64,000 bases of DNA, taken from NCBI RefSeq assembly GCF_002003665.1, contig NZ_JATM01000001.1, positions 1 through 64,000 on the forward strand, read 5' to 3'. Origin of the DNA: Bombella intestini (GTDB lineage Bacteria > Pseudomonadota > Alphaproteobacteria > Acetobacterales > Acetobacteraceae). Under the pieces are notes generated by a model. The model was given only the letters and a program-made list of their open reading frames with translations, was not told where the DNA came from and made no database searches. Position 1 is the stretch's first letter; the number at the start of each line of letters is the position of its first letter. Below are positions 1,592-64,000 of the stretch, piece after piece. The position numbers and the translations under genes were made by a program.

Positions 1592-2343
1592 TGATGACGC
1601 GTGATGAAGCCGTTCGCCATGTTGAGGCGAAGCTGGAACACCATTTTTCCGACCCAGCCCTTTTGCACGAAGCCCTGACACATCGCTCTGCAGTGCCTAG
1701 GCGGCAGGGGCGCAGTCGGGGGAACCAGAGGGGGCGTCAGGGCGCAAAAACCCCACGGGGGCAGGGCTCGAATGAACGTTTGGAGTTCGTGGGCGACCGG
1801 GTGCTTGGCCTGCTGATGGCTGAATGGCTCTTTGAGCGTTACCCGGAGGAGCAGGAAGGTGCCTTGGGGGCACGTCATGCTCATCTGGTATCTCGTCCAG
1901 TTTTGGCCCGCATTGCAGAAGGGATCGGGCTATCCGGGGCGATACAGATTGCCCAGCATGAGGAAAGTGCAGGCATACGCGTTCTGGCAAGTGTCATGGC
2001 GGATGCGATGGAGGCCCTGTTGGGAGCACTCTACCTAGATGCAGGGTTGGACCCAGCCCGCCATGTGGTACGCCGTTTCTGGGATCGTGACATCGAAAGA
2101 AGTGGCCAGCCCCATAAGGAACCGAAGACATTGCTTCAGGAGTTTCTTTTGGGGCGGGGCGAGGCGTTGCCTCATTATGAGCTGACCTCTGCTGAAGGGC
2201 CTTCCCATGCGCCGGTTTTCTGCGTGGAAGTGCGAGCTTTAGGGAAGACGGGGCTTGGGCGTGCTGGCAGCAAGAGGCTGGCGGAAAGTGCAGCCGCAAC
2301 GGATTTATTAAAGAAGATAGGGCAGGAGGCAGAACGTGCCTGA
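1591..2343 (+). CDS. rnc: Ribonuclease III with a basic Arg/Gly-rich insertion
   Basis: Cleaves double-stranded RNA, for example in rRNA precursor processing. The catalytic domain carries ALTHRSA, then NERLEFVGDRVLGLLMAEWL with the metal-binding Glu/Asp, and later MADAMEALLGALYLDAG; a double-stranded RNA-binding domain follows from about residue 160 to the end (250 residues). Between HRSA and SNERLEF lie about 25 residues of Arg, Gly, Gln and Lys where E. coli RNase III has about four, so the loop beside the active site is enlarged and strongly positive. ATG 1591 overlaps the lepB stop by one base; ATG 1594 or an upstream TTG are alternatives, and none has a good ribosome-binding site, consistent with coupled translation. 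Confidence 0.92.
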   Translation: MMTRDEAVRHVEAKLEHHFSDPALLHEALTHRSAVPRRQGRSRGNQRGRQGAKTPRGQGSNERLEFVGDRVLGLLMAEWLFERYPEEQEGALGARHAHLVSRPVLARIAEGIGLSGAIQIAQHEESAGIRVLASVMADAMEALLGALYLDAGLDPARHVVRRFWDRDIERSGQPHKEPKTLLQEFLLGRGEALPHYELTSAEGPSHAPVFCVEVRALGKTGLGRAGSKRLAESAAATDLLKKIGQEAERA

Positions 2344-3271
2344 AGAGATCACCTCTCCAATGGAGAGCATGGCAGTGGGCCAGACACGTTGCGGCTTTGT
2401 CGCTCTTGTTGGGGCTCCTAATGCGGGTAAATCTACCTTGCTGAACCGCATGGCCGGAGCCAAACTTTCCATTGTTAGCCCTAAGGCGCAGACAACACGG
2501 TTCCGCACGCTTGGCATTGTTATGCAGGGCGCAGCGCAGCTCATCTTCGTGGACCTGCCGGGTATTTTTAAGCCTCGCCGGAGGCTGGATCAGGCGATGG
2601 TCAATGCCGCTTGGAGCGGCTCGCAAGATGCTGATTTGACACTTCTGCTGATCGATAGTCGTATTGGTCTGACGGATGAAATCAAAGACATCATCGCAAA
2701 GCTGAAGGATAGCAAGCGTCCTGTTTGGCTTGTGCTGAACAAGACAGACCTCATTCAGCGTGACCAGCTTCTACCTCTGACGAAAGCCATCACCGACCTT
2801 CTACCTGTAGAAGAGGTTTATATGGTGAGCGCTCGGTCTGGTGAAGGTGTGGATGGCCTGCTGGCAGGGCTGGCTAAGGCCGTGCCCGCTGGGCCTTATC
2901 ACTACCCAGAAGATGACCTGACAGACCTGCCAGACCGTCTTCTGGCTGCGGAAATTGTACGGGAACAGGTTTTTCTTCAGACGCATGAGGAAATTCCCTA
3001 TCACGCCACGGTGGAGACCGAATCCTTTAAGACACGCAAGGATGGGTCCATCCGCATTGATGTGACGATTTATGTCTCACGGGCGGGGCATAAGGCTATT
3101 CTCATCGGGGAGCGTGGGCAGCGCATCCGGGAGATCGGAATGAGAGCGCGTAAGCAGCTAGAAGGGCTTCTGGATGCCCCTTGCCACCTTTTCATCAATG
3201 TGAAGGAGAGGGCTGCGTGGGATAAGGAGACGGCCCGTTTGCGGGCTCTTGGCCTTGCAGATTATGGCTAA
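2336..3271 (+). CDS. era: GTPase Era
   Basis: GTPase that binds 16S rRNA and assists 30S subunit assembly. The 311-residue product has the G1 loop GAPNAGKSTLLNR, the G3 element DLPG, the G4 element NKTD and a C-terminal KH RNA-binding domain around GERGQRIREIGMRARKQLEGLL. The start is a GTG at 2336, eight bases inside rnc; a clear AGGAGG sequence lies about six bases upstream of it and decides against the downstream ATG. rnc-era is a conserved pair. No recO follows, unlike in many relatives; pyrH comes next. Confidence 0.95.
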   Translation: MPEEITSPMESMAVGQTRCGFVALVGAPNAGKSTLLNRMAGAKLSIVSPKAQTTRFRTLGIVMQGAAQLIFVDLPGIFKPRRRLDQAMVNAAWSGSQDADLTLLLIDSRIGLTDEIKDIIAKLKDSKRPVWLVLNKTDLIQRDQLLPLTKAITDLLPVEEVYMVSARSGEGVDGLLAGLAKAVPAGPYHYPEDDLTDLPDRLLAAEIVREQVFLQTHEEIPYHATVETESFKTRKDGSIRIDVTIYVSRAGHKAILIGERGQRIREIGMRARKQLEGLLDAPCHLFINVKERAAWDKETARLRALGLADYG

Positions 3272-3364
3272 GCCGTACGAGTTTCGCTTGTTCATGCGGG
3301 GATGGCTCTGTATGAGGGAGCAGACAGATTTCAGGACATTATCAACCAGAGAGCCGGTACGACC

Positions 3365-4102
3365 ATGAGCACCGCCCCACAAGCGCCGAATTTCCCTTAT
3401 AAACGGGTCCTTCTCAAAGTGTCTGGCGAGGCACTGATGGGTAAGGGAGCCGCCGGTGTGGACCCGGAAATGGTGGATATGGTGGCCGCTGATATTGCAG
3501 ATGTCGCCGCTATGGGCGGGCAAGTCTGCCTCGTCGTGGGCGGAGGGAATATCTTCCGTGGTCTGGCCGCCGCCGCCAAAGGGATGGACCGGGTGCAGGG
3601 TGATTATGCCGGGATGCTGGCAACGGTCATCAATGCGTTGATGCTTCAGAACGCACTGGAGAAGCGCAATGTCGAGACCCGTGTGATGACGGCCATCCAT
3701 ATGGCTTCCATTGCCGAGCCTTATATCCGCCGCCGTGCCGTCCGGCATATGGAAAAAGGCCGTGTGGTCATCTTTGCCGCAGGTACGGGCAACCCCTTCT
3801 TCACTACCGATACAGCTGCTGCTCTGCGTGCGAACGAGATGGAGTGCGATGCGCTCTTCAAGGGGACTCAGGTTGATGGTGTCTATTCTGAAGACCCCCG
3901 TGTGAACCCCAATGCCGAGCGGTACGAGCAGCTGACTTACATGGATGCTTTGGCCCGTAACCTGAAGGTTATGGACGCAGCCGCCATCAGTCTCGCCCGG
4001 GAAAATGCCCTGCCGATCATCGTGTTCAACATGCATGCACCGGGTGCATTTGCAGCGGCGATGAAGGGTGAGGGACGTTTCACCCGGATCATTGAGGACT
4101 GA
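3365..4102 (+). CDS. pyrH: Uridylate kinase
   Basis: Phosphorylates UMP to UDP in pyrimidine nucleotide synthesis as a cytoplasmic hexamer of the amino-acid kinase fold. The 245-residue protein opens with the nucleotide-binding strand [23 protein letters not shown] and [17 protein letters not shown] are the phosphate- and UMP-binding elements. A longer in-frame ORF starts at ATG 3302, but its 21 extra residues are not like the family, so ATG 3365 is used. It is followed by frr after about 70 bp, the common bacterial pyrH-frr order. Confidence 0.95.
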
Positions 4103-6351: not shown

Positions 6352-7536
6352 ATGGGGGGAGGTTCTGGGCGTCGGCGCATCAGTGTACTCGGCAGTACGG
6401 GTAGTATCGGGGTTTCGACAGTCGATCTTCTGAAGCAGCAGGCAGACTCCATCCAGGTGCGTGCCCTTGTGGGCGGGAAGAATGCCGCCCTTCTGGCCGA
6501 ACAGGCCAAGGCGCTGAAAGCTGAACTGGCTGTCCTGAATGATGAACAACATTATGACGAGCTGAAAGAGCGTCTTGCTGGCACCGATGTGAAGGTTGCG
6601 GCTGGTCGGCAGGCCGTTATCGAGGCTGGTGCGTTGGAAGCTGACTGGACGATGGCAGCCATTACCGGGGCGGCCGGTCTAGCGCCAACTTTGGAGGCCG
6701 TACGCAACGGTCATCAGGTGGCTCTGGCTAACAAGGAAGCCCTCGTTTGTGCTGGTAATGTCATGCTGGACGCTGTGCGCCATGCCGGTGCCGAGTTGTT
6801 GCCCGTGGATTCCGAGCATAATGCCATTGTGCAATCACTTGGCGGGGCGGATATGTCCCTTGTCGAGAAGATTGTGCTGACAGCTTCTGGCGGTCCGTTC
6901 CGTTGCTCCACCAAGGAGGAAATGGCCAAGGCGACCCCTGAGCAGGCTTTGAAGCATCCCACATGGTCCATGGGGGCTAAGATCACGATTGATTCCGCTT
7001 CCATGGCGAATAAGGGGCTGGAAGTGATCGAGGCTGCCCGCTTGTTCGATCTGCCAGAGCATCAGATTGACGTGCTGGTGCATCCGCAGTCCGTTGTGCA
7101 TGGCATGGTATGCTTCCGTGATGGTAGTTTCGTGGCTCAGATGGGAACGGCAGATATGCGGATTCCTATTGCCCACACACTGGCCTCTCCAACCCGGATG
7201 CAGACGAAGTGTGAGCGCCTGGATTTCGTAAAGCTGGGGCAGATGAATTTTGAAGCAGTAGACGAGGAACGCTTCATTCCGTTGCGTCTGGCTCGTCAGG
7301 TTCTGCGGGCTGGAGGTGTGGCTCCGACTGTCTTCTCCGCCGCCAATGAGATTGCCGTGGAAGCCTTCCTCGCCGGGAAAATCCGCTTCCTTGGTATTGG
7401 TGAGCTGATTGATGCCAGCCTTCAGGCCATGCCGGAAAACCCCGTGCCGACCTCGCTAGAGGACGTTTATCATTGGGATGAAATGGGCCGTGAACTAGCC
7501 CGGGCACAGATAAAGCGGATGGCGGCCCATGCATAG
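6352..7536 (+). CDS. dxr: 1-deoxy-D-xylulose 5-phosphate reductoisomerase
   Basis: Second step of the non-mevalonate isoprenoid pathway: DXP to 2-C-methyl-D-erythritol 4-phosphate with NADPH. The N-terminus has the nucleotide-binding ISVLGSTGSIGVSTVDLL; ALANKEALVCAG, VDSEHNAI, and ILTASGGPF (here VLTASGGPF) carry substrate and metal ligands; the C-terminal helical domain is intact. 394 residues. ATG 6352 is preferred over 6322 because GGGAGAGG lies six bases upstream and the ten extra residues look unrelated. rseP overlaps its end by 8 bp. Confidence 0.95.
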   Translation: MGGGSGRRRISVLGSTGSIGVSTVDLLKQQADSIQVRALVGGKNAALLAEQAKALKAELAVLNDEQHYDELKERLAGTDVKVAAGRQAVIEAGALEADWTMAAITGAAGLAPTLEAVRNGHQVALANKEALVCAGNVMLDAVRHAGAELLPVDSEHNAIVQSLGGADMSLVEKIVLTASGGPFRCSTKEEMAKATPEQALKHPTWSMGAKITIDSASMANKGLEVIEAARLFDLPEHQIDVLVHPQSVVHGMVCFRDGSFVAQMGTADMRIPIAHTLASPTRMQTKCERLDFVKLGQMNFEAVDEERFIPLRLARQVLRAGGVAPTVFSAANEIAVEAFLAGKIRFLGIGELIDASLQAMPENPVPTSLEDVYHWDEMGRELARAQIKRMAAHA

Positions 7537-8614
7537 TCTTCAGAGCATCATTGCCGGTCTGGTCGTTTTCGGGATCGTTGTCTTCATTCACGAGCTGGGC
7601 CATTATCTGGCCGCACGGTGGCGTGGCGTGCAGGTGACTGTTTTTTCCATCGGGTTCGGCCCCGCCCTGACATCATGGAAGGACCGGGTGGGAACACGCT
7701 GGCAGATTAGCCTTCTACCGCTTGGGGGCTATGTAAAGCTGCACGGTTTTGAGAACCGGCCCGATGCCCCACGGGAGGAAGGTGACGAGAATGCCTTCAA
7801 TCGGAAATCTGTTCTGTCACGGGCTATCGTGACGGTTGCGGGGCCGGTCTTCAATTTCCTTCTGACAATTCTTCTTTTTGTGATCCTGCTTTCCTGTTTT
7901 GGTAAGCCGGAGGCACGGCCCGATATCGGCACGCTGGCACCCGATGGTGCCGCCATGAAAGCCGGATTGCAGGTTGGTGATGAGATCCAGCGTCTGAACG
8001 GGCATCATATTCTTAGCATCGGCGATATTCAGGCACAGGTTGCTGCTCATCCCGGTGAGGTTATGAAGGTCGGCTTCTTGCGGAAGGGACAGACTGAAGA
8101 ACTGCCTGTCACGCTTGATCGCATCCAGCAAAACGGCCATGATGTAGGCCGTCTGGGTGTTGGGTTTGCGGTAAGTCATAGTGCGCCATTGCCGGTTTAT
8201 AAGGCGGTGCCGGCAGCCATCGGCCAGACATGGGATATGTGTGGCAATATGCTGGAAGGCATCTGGCAGATCATCAGTGGTCAGAGAAGCGCCCAGCAGC
8301 TTTCTGGGACCATTGGCATTATTCATATGTCTGGTCAGGCCGTGGATTATGGCATTGCCAGTGCGATAGGCTTTATCGCTCTGCTCTCTCTGAATCTTGG
8401 ACTGCTGAATCTTTTCCCTGTCCCTATGCTGGATGGTGGGCATTTGCTTTTTTATGCCTTTGAGGCCGTGTTGGGGCGTCCATTATCGGAGCGAACACAG
8501 GGGTACGCTCTGCAGTTTGGTCTGCTGCTTGTGGCCGCACTTTTCATTTTCTCAACAGTGAATGATCTCAGAGGGTTGGGAGTTTTTCACTGGTTGTTTG
8601 CTCATGGGGGTTGA
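7529..8614 (+). CDS. rseP: RIP metalloprotease RseP
   Basis: Site-2 zinc protease of the inner membrane that cleaves transmembrane substrates such as anti-sigma factors and remnant signal peptides. The zinc motif HELGH (His21, Glu22, His25) lies in the first membrane segment; a PDZ domain follows around residues 125-200 (GAAMKAGLQVGDEIQRLNG); the third zinc ligand lies in the late motif NLFPVPMLDGGHLLF. 361 residues, a usual length for a single-PDZ member. It overlaps dxr by 8 bp and precedes bamA, as in most proteobacteria. Confidence 0.94.
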   Translation: MHSLQSIIAGLVVFGIVVFIHELGHYLAARWRGVQVTVFSIGFGPALTSWKDRVGTRWQISLLPLGGYVKLHGFENRPDAPREEGDENAFNRKSVLSRAIVTVAGPVFNFLLTILLFVILLSCFGKPEARPDIGTLAPDGAAMKAGLQVGDEIQRLNGHHILSIGDIQAQVAAHPGEVMKVGFLRKGQTEELPVTLDRIQQNGHDVGRLGVGFAVSHSAPLPVYKAVPAAIGQTWDMCGNMLEGIWQIISGQRSAQQLSGTIGIIHMSGQAVDYGIASAIGFIALLSLNLGLLNLFPVPMLDGGHLLFYAFEAVLGRPLSERTQGYALQFGLLLVAALFIFSTVNDLRGLGVFHWLFAHGG

Positions 8615-55486: not shown

Positions 55487-56836
55487 TCAATCTCCAGCAA
55501 GACTCATCTGGTCAATACGGATGGTCGGGGCATGATGGCCCATCATCAGGTTGATGTCATTGGCGGGAATGAGCCGCGCAAACATGTCAAGTAGATTGCC
55601 GGCCACTGTAATGCCTGAAACAGGTTCGGCAATCTCACCATTGCGGATCATGAAGCCTGATCCACCCCGGCTGTAATCCCCTGTTAACATGTTGATGGCA
55701 CTGCCCATCAGTTCAGTGATGAGCACGCCCTCTTTGATATCATGTCTTAGTTCTTCAGGGGAGTGCTGGCCTGCATGAAGGAGGAGGTTGGACGTGCCGG
55801 GATGAACACTTCCCCCGCCGCTACGGTTGGCCCGGCCATTACTGGCGGGTAAGCCCAGCTTGCGGGCGCAGCGGCTGTCCAGCAGCCAGTGATGGAGCTG
55901 CCCATCCTCCACAAGGTTGAGAGGCCGGCCGGCTGTACCTTCTCCATCAAAGGGGCGGGAGCCGGCAAGACGTGGCAAGGTCGGGTCATCAGTAATGGTG
56001 ATGCCCCGGCTGAAGACAGCGTGGTTCAGCTTGTCCTTGAGGAAAGAAGCCTCCTGTACGATGGCAGACCCGTTAATTGCCCCGGCAAGATGGGCCAATA
56101 GGGAGCCAGCCACACGGGGGTCGAATAAAACAGGATAAAGGCCTGTTTTCGGTCGTGTGGGGTTTAGTCGGGCGAGGGCACGGCGGGCCGCTTCGTGACC
56201 CAGTTGGGCGGGATTTTCAAGGTCCGCCTGATGCACGGCACTATGGAAGGCATAGTCACGTTGCATCTGTGCGCCTGTCCCGGCCAGAACGCTGATGCCA
56301 TAACCGTGGCCACTGCGCTGATACTGCCCGGTAAAGCCCGCACTGGTAGCAAGAGCAACATCGTGCAGACTTGTGCTGGCGGAGGCCCCGCTGCTGTTGG
56401 TAATGCCATCATGCGAGAGGGCGGCTTCTTCCATGTCCTGCGCCTTGCTCAGCAGGGTCTCCATACTGGGCGGAGTGGCCGGGTCAAGGAGATCAAGCGT
56501 TGCAATAGCGTTGGCCGGAACGGGAATGAGGGGCTGGGCAGCTAGACCATCATCCGGTGAAGGGGGCACGACCTTTGCCATGGCGCAAGCCCGTTCTGCC
56601 AGTTGGGAAAGGGCTTCTGGGGTTAGGTCGTTGCCTGCAACCGTAGCCACACGGCCTTCATGGAAGACCCGCAGCCCGAGGGATAGGCTTTCAGCATGGC
56701 GGATGCCTTCGGCCTTGCCTTGCCGTATCATGGCGGAACGGCTCTGCCCACGAATGACCACCGCATCAGCCTGATCGGCCCCATGCTGGCGGGCGAGTTT
56801 TAGGGCATCATCAAGGTGGGAAAGAAGGCTGGTCAT
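55487..56836 (-). CDS. pmbA: TldD/PmbA family metalloprotease subunit (TldE)
   Basis: PmbA/TldE is the non-catalytic partner of the TldD zinc protease, which processes small peptides. The protein has the N-terminal RQHGADQADAVVIRG and the C-terminal region GGSGFMIRNGEIAEPVSGITVAGNLLDMF, typical of PmbA. 449 residues. TldD itself, with its HExxxH motif, is not in the window. It overlaps the M16 peptidase gene by 4 bp. Confidence 0.9.
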   Translation of the reverse strand: MTSLLSHLDDALKLARQHGADQADAVVIRGQSRSAMIRQGKAEGIRHAESLSLGLRVFHEGRVATVAGNDLTPEALSQLAERACAMAKVVPPSPDDGLAAQPLIPVPANAIATLDLLDPATPPSMETLLSKAQDMEEAALSHDGITNSSGASASTSLHDVALATSAGFTGQYQRSGHGYGISVLAGTGAQMQRDYAFHSAVHQADLENPAQLGHEAARRALARLNPTRPKTGLYPVLFDPRVAGSLLAHLAGAINGSAIVQEASFLKDKLNHAVFSRGITITDDPTLPRLAGSRPFDGEGTAGRPLNLVEDGQLHHWLLDSRCARKLGLPASNGRANRSGGGSVHPGTSNLLLHAGQHSPEELRHDIKEGVLITELMGSAINMLTGDYSRGGSGFMIRNGEIAEPVSGITVAGNLLDMFARLIPANDINLMMGHHAPTIRIDQMSLAGD

Positions 56837-58101
56837 GCGGATTTCAGTGCGGCATGAATGGCATCCGGCCCGGGAATGTTACGGGCTGGCCCCATTGTTG
56901 TCAGGGTCGGTGCGCCATTGAAGATGGTTCGGGCGGTGGCGAGCACATCTTTTTCGGTGACGGCATCAATCTTGCGGATCATATCCCCTGTGGAGATGAT
57001 GCGGTCATGCACCTGAATTTGGCGGGCAATCTGGGCGCAGCGGCTGCCCGTGCTTTCCAGCGACATGAGGAGAGATGCTTTGAGCTGGGTGCGAGCACGA
57101 TCCAGCTCCTCCTTGCTGATGCCATTCTGAAGGTTGCGGAGTTCGTTCAGGGCAGCGGGGATAAGCTCATCCGTTTTGTCTGGCCCTGTACCGGCATAGA
57201 TGCCGAACATGCCGCTATCTGCGAACGGGCTGGCAAAGCTGTAAACGCTATAGACCAATCCCCGCCGTTCCCGGATTTCCTGAAACAGGCGAGATGACAT
57301 GCCGCCACCCAGCAGGGTGGAGAGGATCATCGCACTGTAATAGCTCTTTTCCCGATAGCCGGGGGCTGGAAAACCCATGAGGATATGGACCTGATCCAGC
57401 TTGCGCTCTGTCTGCTTTAGTCCGCCGACATAGCGACCCGGTACGGCTTGTGGGGGCGTATGTGTGGGTAGGTCTGCAAAATGGGTACGGACGAGCTCGA
57501 CCACATCATCATGATGCAGATTACCTGCCGCAGCGATGACCATGTTCTGCGTGCTGTAATGCTCGTGCATATAGGCCATCAGTGTTTCTCGGCTCATGCT
57601 GGCAATGCCATTTTCTGTGCCGAGAATGGGGCGGCCCATGGGCTGGTCGGGATAGGCACATTCCTGAAAATGGTCAAAGACGATGTCATCCGGCGTATCA
57701 TTGGCCTGACCAATTTCTTGAAGAATGACACCACGTTCCCGCTCCACTTCCTCCGGCAGGAAGGTGCTGTGGGTGAGGATATCGCCGATCAGGTCCACAC
57801 CGAGGGGCAGGTCATTTTTTAGAAGTTTGACGTAATAGGCCGTGTTTTCTCGTGCTGTATAGGCATTGAGATAACCGCCCACATTTTCGACTTCCTCGGC
57901 AATGCGGATGGCAGAGCGGCGTTTTGTTCCCTTGAAGGCCATATGCTCAAGAAAATGGGCAGCCCCGTTGGTAGCTTCGCTTTCATGACGGGTACCAGCT
58001 GCAACATAGGCCCCGAAAGAGACGGTTTCGACACGCTCCATCCGTTCCGTCACGATGTTGAGGCCATTTTCAAGAGTCGTACGTCTGATCTGTTCGCTCA
58101 T
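56833..58101 (-). CDS. M16-family metallopeptidase
   Basis: Inverzincin peptidase of the mitochondrial processing peptidase-like group. The zinc motif HFLEH (His49, Glu52, His53) is in NGAAHFLEHMAFKG, and the family continues YLNAYTARENTAYYVKLL; RERRGLVYSVYSFASPF lies in the C-terminal domain. 422 residues from ATG 58101; ATG 58119 adds six residues and neither has a good ribosome-binding site. Following thrC on the same strand is a common alphaproteobacterial order. Confidence 0.92.
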   Translation of the reverse strand: MSEQIRRTTLENGLNIVTERMERVETVSFGAYVAAGTRHESEATNGAAHFLEHMAFKGTKRRSAIRIAEEVENVGGYLNAYTARENTAYYVKLLKNDLPLGVDLIGDILTHSTFLPEEVERERGVILQEIGQANDTPDDIVFDHFQECAYPDQPMGRPILGTENGIASMSRETLMAYMHEHYSTQNMVIAAAGNLHHDDVVELVRTHFADLPTHTPPQAVPGRYVGGLKQTERKLDQVHILMGFPAPGYREKSYYSAMILSTLLGGGMSSRLFQEIRERRGLVYSVYSFASPFADSGMFGIYAGTGPDKTDELIPAALNELRNLQNGISKEELDRARTQLKASLLMSLESTGSRCAQIARQIQVHDRIISTGDMIRKIDAVTEKDVLATARTIFNGAPTLTTMGPARNIPGPDAIHAALKSA

Positions 58102-58264
58102 GCAGTTCTGTGTGTCCATTCTGAAAGAAGAGGCTGAGGTGCCTGCAATATGGTGTGTCGGGGGTCTTTTTCCAGCCCCTGTTGCCCAGAGGGAGGAGGT
58201 AGGGATGGAAAAGGGGGACAGCCCGGCAAGGCTACCCCCCTTTATGGTGCCTGATCCGTCAGGC

Positions 58265-59671
58265 CTATGTGGTCTGGCTGTCCCGATGTTTGCGAACAGC
58301 CGCCTTGACCTTTTCGAGGTTGTTGGGGAGGACCTCATAACGCTCCTTGCGGGAGAAGAGGTCTGCTAGATGGGGTGGCAATTCTGGATGAATGCCTGTG
58401 GCCTTCTTCACGGCATCGGGGAATTTGGCTGGATGCGCCGTAGCTGCGGCAACCATCGGTGTACCCGCCTCACGGAAGCGGTGCCCTGCCGCCAGCCCGA
58501 TCGCTGAATGAGGATCGGCCAGATAGTGGCTCTCGGCGAAAAGCTGCTTCATCGTGGCGGTTGTCTGCTCGTCGCTCAGAGCAATACCGTGGAAGGTCTC
58601 ACGGATTTGCTCCCAAGCATCGTGCGGTACGGCCATGCAGCCTGTCTGACGGAACTCCTCCATGATGGCCCGGCACCGGTTGGGGTCACGGCCCAGCATT
58701 TCGAACAAGAGACGTTCAAAATTGGAGGATACTTGAATATCCATGGAGGGCGACAGGCTGGGTTCGACCTTCCGCTTGGTCATGTCGTTATTGAGCAGGA
58801 AGCGGGTAAGGATGTCATTCCTGTTGGAACCGACACAGAGATGGTCGATGGGCAAGCCCATTTGGCTGGCAGCCCAAGCGGCGAGGATGTTACCAAAGTT
58901 CCCGGTCGGTACGGCAAAGGAGACCGGGCGGTCCGGCCCACCAAGGGCAAGGGCAGAGCGCACATAGTAGGGGATTTGCGCAGCAATACGGGCCCAATTG
59001 ATGGAGTTAACGGCGGAGAGGGAACAGTCCGTACGGAATTTTTCATCAGCGAACATGGCTTTGACCATGTCCTGACAGTCGTCAAAGTCACCTTCTACGG
59101 CGATGTTGAGGACGTTATCCTCTAGCACGGTGGTCATCTGACGCCGTTGGACGTCCGATGTCCGGCCATAGGGATGGAGGATGACGATGGAGACATGTTC
59201 CCGCCCACGGAAGGCTTCGATGGCGGCGGACCCTGTGTCGCCCGATGTTGCGCCGACAATGGTAACGTGGCGGTTACGCTGTTTCAGTACATATTCGAAG
59301 AGGCGGCCAAGCATCTGCATGGCCATATCTTTGAAGGCCAGTGTCGGGCCGTGGAACAGTTCCAGCGAGAAGAGGCCGTCTTCCACTTCCACCAGAGGCG
59401 CTACAGCAGCGTGGTCGAACTTGCCGTATACATCCCGTGCCATGGTGCGGAGCGTTTCACGGTCTATGCTGCCCTCGGTGAAGAGGCCAATAACTTCCGC
59501 CGCTAGGTCGGCATAGGAGAGGCTACGCCAGCTAGTCAGGGTCTCACGAGGGATGTGTGGCCAGTGGTCGGGCATGTAAAGCCCGCCATCGTCAGCCAGA
59601 CCGCTGAGCAGGATATCGGAAAAGTCGGGGGCAGCGGCATCCAGTGTGCCGCGGGTAGATCGATAACGCAT
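58265..59671 (-). CDS. thrC: Threonine synthase
   Basis: PLP enzyme converting O-phosphohomoserine to threonine. The PLP lysine lies in HGPTLAFKDMAMQMLG; the phosphate-binding region is VGATSGDTGSAAIEAF; PTGNFGNILAAW is a further conserved motif. 468 residues, the long class found in many proteobacteria and yeast. ATG 59671 is used; a GTG nine bases upstream is also in frame. It starts 28 bp after the end of the royal-jelly-protein-like gene on the same strand, so it may be read from the same transcript. Confidence 0.94.
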   Translation of the reverse strand: MRYRSTRGTLDAAAPDFSDILLSGLADDGGLYMPDHWPHIPRETLTSWRSLSYADLAAEVIGLFTEGSIDRETLRTMARDVYGKFDHAAVAPLVEVEDGLFSLELFHGPTLAFKDMAMQMLGRLFEYVLKQRNRHVTIVGATSGDTGSAAIEAFRGREHVSIVILHPYGRTSDVQRRQMTTVLEDNVLNIAVEGDFDDCQDMVKAMFADEKFRTDCSLSAVNSINWARIAAQIPYYVRSALALGGPDRPVSFAVPTGNFGNILAAWAASQMGLPIDHLCVGSNRNDILTRFLLNNDMTKRKVEPSLSPSMDIQVSSNFERLLFEMLGRDPNRCRAIMEEFRQTGCMAVPHDAWEQIRETFHGIALSDEQTTATMKQLFAESHYLADPHSAIGLAAGHRFREAGTPMVAAATAHPAKFPDAVKKATGIHPELPPHLADLFSRKERYEVLPNNLEKVKAAVRKHRDSQTT

Positions 59672-59698
59672 AGGCCTCACTATAACACCGAAATGTCA

Positions 59699-61057
59699 TC
59701 AGGGCAGGGTAATTTCCAGTAGATGCTGGTGATTGGTTGCGGAAGCAGGATTTGCACCGTTTGTTGGTGCTGTAGGCTCTGTCAGAATAGCCAGCTTCTC
59801 TTGTGCGCCTGTGCGGCCTTTGAGTAGGGAAATGGCCTGCGCATCGTAGAGTCTGTCATCATGAAGAAGACGCCAGGGCAAACGGTCGGCACCGAAGGCT
59901 AAGAGGTCTCCGTGGTCAATATCGACCATATAGAGTGTGTCATCCCGGGTGATGGCCATACCACCTAGGCTAGGGGTCCGCCGCCAGTTCGTCATAGCCT
60001 CTATGCGCTCAGCCGGACCGAGGCTAGAATCGGTCAGGATAGTGGTGCCGATTCGGTAAAGTGGTCCTGTCGGTGTCTGATAGAACAGCCAGTTCTTGCT
60101 ATGGTCCAACAGAAGAAAATGCACGTTGCCGCCCGTTCTGGACTGTCCCTGTGCGGTGGTGACAGGCTGCCCGTGGCGTATGAGGGGGGCGTGACTGCTT
60201 AGAGAAGGAGCTCCCTCTAGCAGGCGTTCCGCATGTCCGCTTTGCAGGTCGATGACGACAAAAGCTGGGGCGCCATCATCCACCAGAAAGGCCTTATTGT
60301 CCGTTACCTGAAGGGCTGAAATATGGCTACCAACCGCCAGAGCGGAGCCAAAACCGATATGGTTGAGGATGACCCCTGTATCTGGTGCGATATTCAACAA
60401 AGCAGGTTTGGGGGCTTGCGTTACGGCCCAGAGACCTTGGGCTGTAGCTGTCAACGCTGTGATGGGGGGCAATTCATCCATCAGGATGGTGAGGTGCCCA
60501 TCCACGGGGTCTAGCCTGTAGAGCTTACCAGTCACGCCTAAGGCAAAGGGGGAGCCATCTGGGAGTGAGCTGAGCGAGGCAGCTAGAGGTAGGCTTAGCT
60601 CATGCTCGGCAGTGATCTGAGCCTGCACATGGGCATCCTGCCATGGGCGGTCCGCTCTGGCGGCAGGGCTGAGCCCCAGAAAAGCGGCCGATACGATGAA
60701 GGCTGAAGTCAGCAATGAGGACAGACGTATTTGCATGGCAGGTATCTGGGGACTTTGGGAGCGTTTTGCAAGTTCCCTTCGGTGGGGACGGTTTGGATGC
60801 TGGGGGTATGGAAGAATCAGGGCCAGCAGAAAACCCGTAAGTGGTGCTGTGAAAGCCCATAGGAACAACCCATCCAACCCATTTAGTAGATAGGCTGCTG
60901 TCAGACCGCAGGGGGGTAGAAGTAAGCGAAGGTATTTTTGTAGCGCATTAGCAGGGGGAAGGTGGCAGGGATTCCGCCGCCTGTGAGCCGGAAGCTGGTT
61001 GAGATAGAGAAGCCAGATAATGGTCCATAGGCTCATGAGAATGAGGGAAAGGATCAT
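59699..61057 (-). CDS. DUF3325-like membrane module fused to a periplasmic MRJP/yellow-like beta-propeller
   Basis: One open frame of 452 residues with two parts. Residues 1-90 hold three hydrophobic segments (MILSLILMSLWTIIWLLYL; RLLLPPCGLTAAYLL; LFLWAFTAPLTGFLLALILPY) separated by a basic loop, as in the small DUF3325 proteins that accompany PepSY proteins in iron-uptake loci. Residue 108 begins a signal-peptide-like segment (MQIRLSSLLTSAFIVSAAFL, A-R-A before Asp136). From about 140 on, the sequence resembles the major royal jelly protein/yellow family: DDGAPAFVVIDLQSGHAERL, NWLFYQTPTGPLYRI, GGMAITRDDTLYMVDIDHGD. ATG 61057 overlaps the PepSY stop and has AGAGGT upstream. A separate start at ATG 60736 is possible but has no ribosome-binding site. 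Function unknown. Confidence 0.7.
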   Translation of the reverse strand: MILSLILMSLWTIIWLLYLNQLPAHRRRNPCHLPPANALQKYLRLLLPPCGLTAAYLLNGLDGLFLWAFTAPLTGFLLALILPYPQHPNRPHRRELAKRSQSPQIPAMQIRLSSLLTSAFIVSAAFLGLSPAARADRPWQDAHVQAQITAEHELSLPLAASLSSLPDGSPFALGVTGKLYRLDPVDGHLTILMDELPPITALTATAQGLWAVTQAPKPALLNIAPDTGVILNHIGFGSALAVGSHISALQVTDNKAFLVDDGAPAFVVIDLQSGHAERLLEGAPSLSSHAPLIRHGQPVTTAQGQSRTGGNVHFLLLDHSKNWLFYQTPTGPLYRIGTTILTDSSLGPAERIEAMTNWRRTPSLGGMAITRDDTLYMVDIDHGDLLAFGADRLPWRLLHDDRLYDAQAISLLKGRTGAQEKLAILTEPTAPTNGANPASATNHQHLLEITLP

Positions 61058-62508
61058 GTTGACCTCTTGTAAATAGGCCGGAGAAGAACAGACAGACAGG
61101 CTATCCCGATGCCAGTTGCTAGGGCATCCACAGCACTGAAGAGGAGGGGACGGCCTGTGTGAAAGGGGCGTGTCAGCAGGTCTAGGCCTGTGGTGCCTAC
61201 CCCCAGTATAGCCAAGAGGGCAAGTTGCCATGTAGCAGCGCAGCGGGACACGCAGGCATGGAGTAGGGAGAGGCCCCAGAGGCCAAAGAACAGACTTTCT
61301 TCCCATAAGAGAGAGGGAAGATCAGAAGGTGCCGGCAGGCGTGTACTCCAGAACAAGGCCAGCGTTGCTAGAGGCAGCCCCACAATGGTGGCGGTGGTGA
61401 GGGCGGAATAGCCCTGCTGAAGACTTCGTTGGGCTAGGGAAATCGTGGAAAGATGGATGATGCTGTTTTGTTCCGATTGAAGAAAAAGGATCATACCGGA
61501 ACCGATGATGATGCAGCCTAGTAGGCCGCTGAAACAGTAGAACCATCGTGTCGCCAGCCCCGCCCAGCGCAGATTATGCAGCCCTAGGACAACACTGTGG
61601 AGGGTGGGGCAAAGGGAGCGGGCGGGTATGGTGGTATGTGTGGCGGTTAGAGCCTGACGCTGGAGGCAGAAATGTAAGTTGTCCGGCGCATAAAGGCTGA
61701 GGTCGTGGCCTGTTTGCATAAAGAAGCCCTCGGCCACGGTGCCCCATTGCTGCTGTCCGGCTCTAGCCAATGTGGGCAGGGTGTCCGCAGGGATGGAGAG
61801 AGGAGCGGCACTCTGGGCCTGATGACGGCTGGCATGGCCGGGTGGATGATGTGGGGGGCTGGCAAGCTGAAAAAGCTTTTGTGCCTGTAGAACTGTACCT
61901 GACAACCCAATGACAAACAGGATGGGCAAGCTAAGTGTTCCACCCAGTAGGTGGAGGTCTAACCAGCGACGCTGACGGGCAGCGTGGGGGCGGAAGAGCA
62001 GCAGGTCCGGCAGAAAACGGCGGAGCTGGAGCCAGAGGCCAGTGAGCAATGTGGCGAGCAACGCAGTGCCAGCGACTACTATCACGACCTGCCCCCACGG
62101 GGTGGGTAAGTAGAGGTGGCTATGCAGAGTAACGAAAAAAGTACCACCGGGAACGTCTCTGCTGGGCAGAGGGAGGCCGGTATCGGGCGCAAGGGCAGGG
62201 CCAAGGAATATATGGCCGTCATAATGCCAGAGACGGAAAACGGGGTCTCGGGGAGAGGGCAGCCTTAGAAAGGTAAAATGGCCTGCGTTAAGCTGTTCTT
62301 TTAGCCTCCGTCCGGCTTCGGTTAGGCCGGATGAGGTCATGGAAGGTAAGGGGGCGTGTAGAGTCGTGCTAGGTTGCATCCAGTCCTGTATTTCGGGTGA
62401 AAAACAGGCCAGAGAGCCGGTGAAGCAGAGGATGAAGAGGAAGACTCCAGCCGGGAAGCCAATCCAGCGATGGAAAAGACGCAGGATGGAACGGAGGCTG
62501 GGGGACAT
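61054..62508 (-). CDS. PepSY-associated transmembrane protein, probable iron-uptake reductase
   Basis: Membrane protein of the PepSY_TM family, whose members sit beside siderophore receptors and are thought to reduce ferric siderophores in the periplasm. Seen: the first membrane segment FHRWIGFPAGVFLFILCFTGSL, the periplasmic region with the motif LHSHLYLPTPWG, then VVAGTALLATLLTGLWL, and LDLHLLGGTLSLPILFVIGLSG, with paired histidines suitable for heme. 484 residues with several further C-terminal spans. It faces the TonB receptor gene across a 202-bp region with Fur-box-like sites. Confidence 0.87.
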   Translation of the reverse strand: MSPSLRSILRLFHRWIGFPAGVFLFILCFTGSLACFSPEIQDWMQPSTTLHAPLPSMTSSGLTEAGRRLKEQLNAGHFTFLRLPSPRDPVFRLWHYDGHIFLGPALAPDTGLPLPSRDVPGGTFFVTLHSHLYLPTPWGQVVIVVAGTALLATLLTGLWLQLRRFLPDLLLFRPHAARQRRWLDLHLLGGTLSLPILFVIGLSGTVLQAQKLFQLASPPHHPPGHASRHQAQSAAPLSIPADTLPTLARAGQQQWGTVAEGFFMQTGHDLSLYAPDNLHFCLQRQALTATHTTIPARSLCPTLHSVVLGLHNLRWAGLATRWFYCFSGLLGCIIIGSGMILFLQSEQNSIIHLSTISLAQRSLQQGYSALTTATIVGLPLATLALFWSTRLPAPSDLPSLLWEESLFFGLWGLSLLHACVSRCAATWQLALLAILGVGTTGLDLLTRPFHTGRPLLFSAVDALATGIGIACLSVLLRPIYKRST

Positions 62509-62710: not shown

Positions 62711-64000
62711 ATGGCTATCTCTTTTCGTTTTTCTTGCAGAACCGCCGGTCTCTGGTGCCTGCTGGCAGGCAGTACACTGGCCGGGAATCCTGTCTGGGCT
62801 GCCGGAGATGAAGGAGGAGAACACTCTGTAAAAGGTCCAATAAAACTGTCTGATCGGCAGGGCGAGAAGACTGACGCCCGTAAGAAGGCAGAAGCCCCTA
62901 GGGAGACCATACTCGTCAAGGCACGGCGGCGGGAGCGGATGGAAGTGAAGCTAGGGGGGCAAGCTGGTGTCCTCGGCAACAAGAAGGGGTTGGACCTCCC
63001 CTTCAATTTGCGCAGTTACACGTCCAGCATGATCTTGAACCAGCAGTCCCAGACATTGGGGCAGGTGCTTCAGAACGATCCTTCCGTACGGACGACCTAT
63101 GGTTACGGCAATTTCTCAGAGACCTTCATCATCCGTGGATTGCCAGTTTATGGGGATGATGTGGCCATCAATGGGCTGTATGGGATTAGCCCCCGACAGC
63201 TGATTTCTCCCCAGCTTTATGATTCAGTGCAGGTTCTGAATGGGGCTAGTGCTTTTATTAACGGCGCTGCACCGGGGGGAACGTCTGTCGGTGGGAATAT
63301 CAATCTCCAGTTTAAACATGCTGAGAGCGAACCAGTTGCACGACTGACAGGGGATTACACCAGCAAAGGCCAAGGCGGGGGTAGCCTAGATGTAGGGCGT
63401 CGTTTTGGTAAGGATGATCAGTTCGGTATCCGCTTTAATGCGGCTGGGATGGATGGGCAGACATCCATTTCTGGCGAGCGGCGCCATTCCGTTGCGCTGG
63501 GGCTTGATACGGACTGGCATAATGACAATACCCGCATCAGTCTCGACATCAATTATCAGAACCAGAATGTCCAGCAGGGGCGTGGCTCTGTCGTTCTGAA
63601 TTCCGGTCTGACGACTGTTCCCCGCCCCACAAGACCGGGCCATAATTGGAGCCAAGGCTGGAGCTATGAAGACATGCATTATGTCTTCGGCCTGTTGAAT
63701 GTTGAACATGACCTGAACAGCCACGTCACGCTCTACGGCAGTTTCGGTGGCATGACCGGTCATGAGGAAGGAAATTACGATACTGTTTATGTCTCAGACG
63801 GACGGACAGGTGATGGCTTTGGCTACGGGTCATACATTCCGTATCAGCAGACTAACGAAAGTACCCGCGGCGGTGTTCGTGCCCATTTCAGAACAGGCTT
63901 CCTGAAACATGAGGTCAATGCTGGTGGATCGGCCCTTTGGTCAGAGGCTTCTACGGGCTATGCGGGCGGTTACCTCGGCAGTACGAATATTTATAGCCCC
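62711..64000 (+). CDS. TonB-dependent siderophore receptor, N-terminal part
   Basis: Outer-membrane receptor for ferric siderophore uptake, energised by TonB. It runs off the window; 430 residues are present. Signal peptide about 1-30 (ending NPVWAAGD), then a charged linker, then the plug domain with the siderophore-receptor order QTLGQVLQNDPSVRTTYGYG, ETFIIRGLPVYGDDVAINGL, VQVLNGASAFINGAAPGG and VGGNINLQFK. Barrel strands follow (DVGRRFGKDDQFGIRFNAAG onward). Start ATG 62711, preceded by AGGA nine bases upstream. The substrate cannot be told; a ferrichrome- or coprogen-type siderophore is possible. No N-terminal signalling domain, so no sigma/anti-sigma regulation is expected; Fur control is likely. 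Confidence 0.9.
   Translation, partial: MAISFRFSCRTAGLWCLLAGSTLAGNPVWAAGDEGGEHSVKGPIKLSDRQGEKTDARKKAEAPRETILVKARRRERMEVKLGGQAGVLGNKKGLDLPFNLRSYTSSMILNQQSQTLGQVLQNDPSVRTTYGYGNFSETFIIRGLPVYGDDVAINGLYGISPRQLISPQLYDSVQVLNGASAFINGAAPGGTSVGGNINLQFKHAESEPVARLTGDYTSKGQGGGSLDVGRRFGKDDQFGIRFNAAGMDGQTSISGERRHSVALGLDTDWHNDNTRISLDINYQNQNVQQGRGSVVLNSGLTTVPRPTRPGHNWSQGWSYEDMHYVFGLLNVEHDLNSHVTLYGSFGGMTGHEEGNYDTVYVSDGRTGDGFGYGSYIPYQQTNESTRGGVRAHFRTGFLKHEVNAGGSALWSEASTGYAGGYLGSTNIYSP

Follow-up and report, generated by a model that had tools for sequence, protein, structure and literature searches.

Yellow genes have long been reported in bacteria, fungi and insects, and a bacterial origin has been proposed for those of insects (PMC6678240). 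Since they are already known from bacteria, one more bacterial member is not surprising. The insect proteins of this superfamily include the yellow proteins and the royal-jelly protein MRJP1 (PF03022; PDB 5yyl, 7asd). The closest solved relative of the protein that we will discuss is Ava_4197 of the cyanobacterium Anabaena variabilis (PDB 2qe8). The second system of interest is a type of iron operon: in Stenotrophomonas maltophilia a DUF3325 gene follows PepSY genes in the iron (Fur) regulon (PMC6240677). We have analysed a stretch of 64,000 nucleotides of Bombella intestini (assembly GCF_002003665.1, contig NZ_JATM01000001.1, positions 1–64,000), which we will call the window. In it a yellow-like beta-propeller and a membrane module placed next to a PepSY gene are found in a single open frame. 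Taken as a whole, the best explanation is that they are two independent neighbouring genes and not an evolved fusion; we would give it a probability of about 90%.

The frame has 452 codons without a stop and is found on the minus strand, in positions 59,699–61,057. Its ATG at 61,057 overlaps the stop codon of a gene for a PepSY_TM protein (61,054–62,508, minus strand; PF03929, E = 8.8e-44). This gene faces a divergent gene for a TonB-dependent siderophore receptor, which starts at 62,711 on the plus strand and continues beyond the window end at 64,000; it has a plug domain and matches TIGR01783. The receptor has 744 aa in the contig and its full ORF is found in locus L060. The frame itself can be divided into three parts. 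Residues 1–84 form a short membrane protein (60,806–61,057, minus strand) with strongly hydrophobic stretches at 1–17 and 66–82; B. intestini lacks a separate stop codon for it, unlike eight other Bombella genomes and Saccharibacter. A linker of 23 codons follows (60,737–60,805, minus strand), which appears to be in frame by accident, its frame and length not being conserved. The third part is a gene for a putative secreted beta-propeller of 345 aa (59,699–60,736, minus strand), in which an internal ATG at 60,736 leads into a signal-peptide-like segment (hydrophobic at 114–130, then ARA/DRPW) and then into the propeller. Both the open frame and these neighbours had been recognized in a preliminary description of the sequence and are confirmed here. 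The host genus, Bombella, is a bee-associated group of acetic acid bacteria, a possibility that the same description had raised.

The nearest named genome to the window is that of Bombella favorum (99%). The frame is also free of stops in this species (G001, 98% identical) and in strain B3987 (G004, 89%). Since three genomes agree, an assembly or sequencing error at the junction, which had been named as something that would undo the first interpretation, is ruled out. There is no indel in the 1,356 bases of the frame among these three species, with joined proteins up to 11% apart. As they are close relatives, their open frames may correspond to one single event.

We will start with the nature of the propeller. 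The kinship with MRJP/yellow proteins that had been claimed for it is upheld as a remote homology. A search with Pfam PF03022 gave no match for the sequences P0001 and P0002 or for the orthologue in the basal Bombella G006 (E ≤ 1–10), and the genome search was likewise empty, but four syntenic orthologues (L013, L014, L015 and L016) do match this family above the cut-off, with values up to E = 1.4e-11. The orthologue L016, from G023, has a long charged low-complexity insertion within the propeller. Profile comparison with canonical bacterial members gave an hhalign probability of 99.6%. The profile of the propeller family matches 2qe8 (E = 1.7e-41), MRJP1 (3.3e-17) and the dopachrome conversion enzyme of Aedes (6.1e-6). 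An AlphaFold2 model built with 32 sequences has a pLDDT of 88.8, compared with 72 for a model built with 13 sequences, and its best folds in the PDB are 2qe8, the putative lactonase 2p4o and MRJP1, while the top ten also contain LJM11, a salivary yellow protein, and the dopachrome conversion enzyme. A six-bladed beta-propeller is thus indicated by the pLDDT of the model and its top folds. Ava_4197 is the closest relative by profile and by fold (TM 0.69–0.71) and is also a beta-propeller; however, the identity is about 20% and the Bombella protein is short of several motifs found in canonical bacterial members. Alignments show that PYPD..WN and ND.R have been deleted or replaced. These motifs are no formal criterion of PF03022, but their absence cautions against taking the standard activity for granted. 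Judged by sequence and model, the propeller belongs with the yellow/MRJP superfamily as a divergent homologue, and by threshold it is no member of PF03022.

The propeller could be a dopachrome-converting enzyme like the insect yellow proteins, or could have been acquired from bees. The matches of fold and sequence to the Aedes enzyme and to MRJP1 would agree with such a reading, and a pigment pathway assigned to a different acetic acid bacterium includes a protein annotated as L-dopachrome tautomerase-related (PMC12654741). We consider it very unlikely: the loss of the PYPD..WN and ND.R motifs speaks against the activity, and the synteny in acetic acid bacteria, together with the far better match to cyanobacterial 2qe8, against the origin. 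The insect proteins share the superfamily with the propeller by profile and fold, but they have about 12% identity with it, and the Bombella protein scores nothing in Pfam and appears to have been inherited within acetic acid bacteria, not from bees. Homologues of varying closeness are found in 77 of the 249 Acetobacteraceae genomes sampled. The synteny throughout the family, and a profile which fits the cyanobacterial protein far better than MRJP1, argue against a transfer from bee to bacterium. The propeller is, to judge from these sequences, native to acetic acid bacteria.

The junction was compared in the 11 Bombella genomes which have both parts, and in Saccharibacter. The single open frame is found in three of them, B. 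intestini, B. favorum and strain B3987. In the other eight, module and propeller are separate, due to a different frame, an intervening stop or an ATGA overlap. The latter, in which the stop of the module overlaps the start of the propeller, is present in B. apis, B. mellum and B. dulcis. In four other genomes the module stops 23, 23, 31 and 54 bases upstream of the propeller ATG. In the basal G006 about 1.7 kb separate the two parts, and this space holds a TPR gene of 575 aa on the opposite strand; the arrangement recurs in Saccharibacter. An evolved fusion should also be open in relatives, and the preliminary description, which had taken the frame as one fused protein, had itself accepted that two separate genes in relatives would speak against it. 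With eight Bombella genomes and Saccharibacter in this situation, a fused protein is not supported.

The TPR gene is also found divergently beside the propeller in further genomes (G018, G023, G032, G035, G112, G134, G163 and G248). In genus g85 the order is PepSY, TPR, propeller, with a weak match to the module beyond the TPR gene. The order TPR-propeller-thrC-M16-pmbA is kept across genera. In crown Bombella (G000–G005, G007–G010) no TPR orthologue is found by the propeller, just remote TPR paralogues elsewhere. Its loss would have brought the module and propeller genes together. The simplest history is that crown Bombella first lost the TPR gene and that the 3' end of the module then drifted, which left one group without a stop.

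The linker has also been studied. Its frame and length vary among Bombella genomes. In codons 85–94, B. intestini (G000) and B3987 (G004) differ by six nonsynonymous and two synonymous codon changes, and six of the ten base changes fall on codon position 2. In the mature propeller of the same two genomes there are 25 nonsynonymous against 95 synonymous changes. A gene fusion should have a linker under protein-level selection; no sign of such constraint was found, in a comparison of very few codons which is only suggestive because the linker is short. The probability of finding an open in-frame linker of 23 codons is about 0.17–0.21, as estimated from random stretches of the window and from base composition, so that nothing beyond chance is needed to account for an open linker.

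The propeller has its own start. Its ATG and the AxA site are conserved in all 11 Bombella genomes. The predicted signal peptide covers approximately residues 1–28, with cleavage at SPAARA/DRPW, and ADRPW is conserved across Bombella. Its real start is, by this conservation of sequence, the internal ATG at 60,736. A promoter-like element lies directly before it (60,737–60,772, minus strand) and is conserved in 11 of 11 genomes: all of them have CTTGCAAAA except one, which has CTTGAAAAA. TTGCAA begins 35 nt upstream of the ATG and is followed, 19 bases later, by an nATA block. The element has no indels and keeps a fixed distance to the ATG in the 11 genomes, whereas the sequence farther upstream is rich in indels. 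In the form CTTGCA-15-CCCCAGATA it presumably resembles the consensus of RpoH heat-shock promoters. A leaderless and perhaps stress-controlled start of the propeller is conceivable. In G006 the element is intergenic, with the divergent TPR gene upstream of it. The pattern (with a gap of 24–30) plus the ATG occurs three times in the genome. There is no Shine-Dalgarno sequence before the ATG of the propeller. A scan with the sigma-70 consensus did not flag the site, because the consensus of acetic acid bacteria is lax: in Gluconobacter oxydans it has ttGnnn at -35 and nAtnnn at -10, with a spacer of 16–23 and a start 3–11 nt further on, and leaderless mRNAs are known in this species (PMC5756330). 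The element agrees with this lax promoter, so that the sequence makes it likely that the propeller has a promoter of its own and an mRNA with no leader or a very short one.

These observations also bear on the possibility of a recent functional fusion in the group of B. intestini, B. favorum and B3987, which would give a membrane-anchored periplasmic protein plus a free form through the internal start. Its best arguments are the frame kept open without indels in three species that differ by up to 11%, and the fact that the module has no other stop in them. It follows from the latter that all ribosomes which start at the ATG of the module will read into the propeller, so that a fused precursor is unavoidable in the three species if the module is translated. 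However, the linker evolves with no protein constraint, its openness is unsurprising by chance and B. apis, a near relative, shows the ATGA overlap. Furthermore, the AxA site is intact and the anchor should be cut off: to judge from the sequence, the signal peptidase should release the same mature propeller from any fusion. This applies whether or not translation begins upstream, and the stable membrane anchor formerly proposed is not sustained. The probability of a functional fusion is thus very small.

We turn now to the genomic partners of the propeller. In the window it is followed, after 18 bases, by thrC (threonine synthase; 58,265–59,680, minus strand), by a gene for an M16-type peptidase (56,833–58,338, minus strand), whose start is over-extended in the ORF list, and by a PmbA/TldD-type gene (55,487–56,836, minus strand), the last of the conserved cluster. 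The order of these genes is the same in all compared loci. We take these three names from recognition of the sequences. In ten genera (g1, g9, g10, g14, g23, g26, g78, g85, g103 and g125) the propeller immediately precedes thrC in the same orientation, and the M16 peptidase and pmbA/tldD genes come after thrC wherever the stretches are long enough. The whole cluster of divergent TPR, propeller, thrC, M16 peptidase and pmbA/tldD can be followed in the window (55,487–60,736) and in loci L057, L059, L061–L064 and L112–L117. The spacing between propeller and thrC is mostly only tens of bases across the Acetobacteraceae loci. In L112 (G168) thrC and the PepSY gene each appear as a pair of ORFs (2,212–3,635 and 6,730–8,144), which suggests frameshifts or sequencing errors.

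The position next to the PepSY gene is a different matter. In G032, G035 and G023 a PF11804-type gene lies beside PepSY, hundreds of kb from the propeller. Given this distance and the link with thrC in ten genera, the iron locus is, on the evidence of gene order, a late neighbour of the propeller. A role of the propeller in the release or handling of ferric siderophores, fused or not, had been proposed in the preliminary description. In the present arrangement the propeller does lie just downstream of the PepSY gene, which is opposite a TonB siderophore receptor, and it may be partially co-transcribed in crown Bombella. But it is bound to thrC in the ten genera, PepSY and the PF11804-type gene are far away in the three genomes just mentioned and the propeller has what appears to be a conserved promoter of its own. 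We find such a role extremely unlikely.

The membrane module resembles the protein of the PepSY-DUF3325 operons by its place: a short membrane protein found directly after PepSY is also present in G026, G034, G032, G035 and G023. As a membrane protein of about 100 aa right after the PepSY gene it has the features expected of DUF3325, and its orthologues have approximately 84–120 aa, with stops of their own in eight Bombella genomes and in Saccharibacter. However, it is missed both by PF11804 and by profile comparison. PF11804 has no match in the module or in its ten aligned orthologues, and none at the place of the module at E ≤ 1. The hhalign comparison with PF11804 proteins found in this family of bacteria gave a probability below 1% over 25 columns, a test of low power in a short membrane protein. 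The identification as DUF3325 is thus not borne out beyond gene position and size; by these two features alone the module is DUF3325-like and may be a diverged DUF3325. A weak match to fatty-acid desaturases (E 0.006–0.07) was below the cut-off and was judged to be due to chance.

A further reading would be a fusion caught in the act: once the TPR gene was deleted, the loss of a stop in one Bombella group would have linked a membrane protein of the iron operon with the secreted propeller of the thrC cluster, and the internal start would give a fused and a free form with distinct roles. It seems to us very unlikely.

We therefore return to two independent genes. The short membrane protein would close an operon of PepSY type associated with iron, whereas the secreted yellow/MRJP propeller would head the cluster that continues with thrC, the M16 peptidase and pmbA/tldD. 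The ancestral divergent TPR gene would have stood between them until its deletion in crown Bombella, after which the membrane gene would have had its 3' end right next to the propeller promoter. In most crown species the membrane gene would then end just before the propeller ATG or exactly at it; a small frame shift would have deprived it of its stop in B. intestini, B. favorum and B3987, so that the frame continues into the propeller. Most of the propeller probably comes from its own promoter and start codon, possibly without a leader. It would be exported by Sec, cut at the AxA site and freed as a periplasmic propeller, which, by analogy with related propellers, might bind or convert a small molecule. 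A read-through product started at the upstream ATG would be inserted into the membrane and cut at this AxA site as well, which would yield an identical mature propeller.

The case illustrates how annotation can be misled by an open frame that is real: if it were called as one gene, the start of the propeller and its signal peptide would be hidden. The result also opposes the idea of a bee symbiont carrying a royal-jelly protein taken from its host. The conserved association of the propeller with threonine synthase, found in ten genera among the acetic acid bacteria, gives a testable clue to what yellow proteins do in bacteria.
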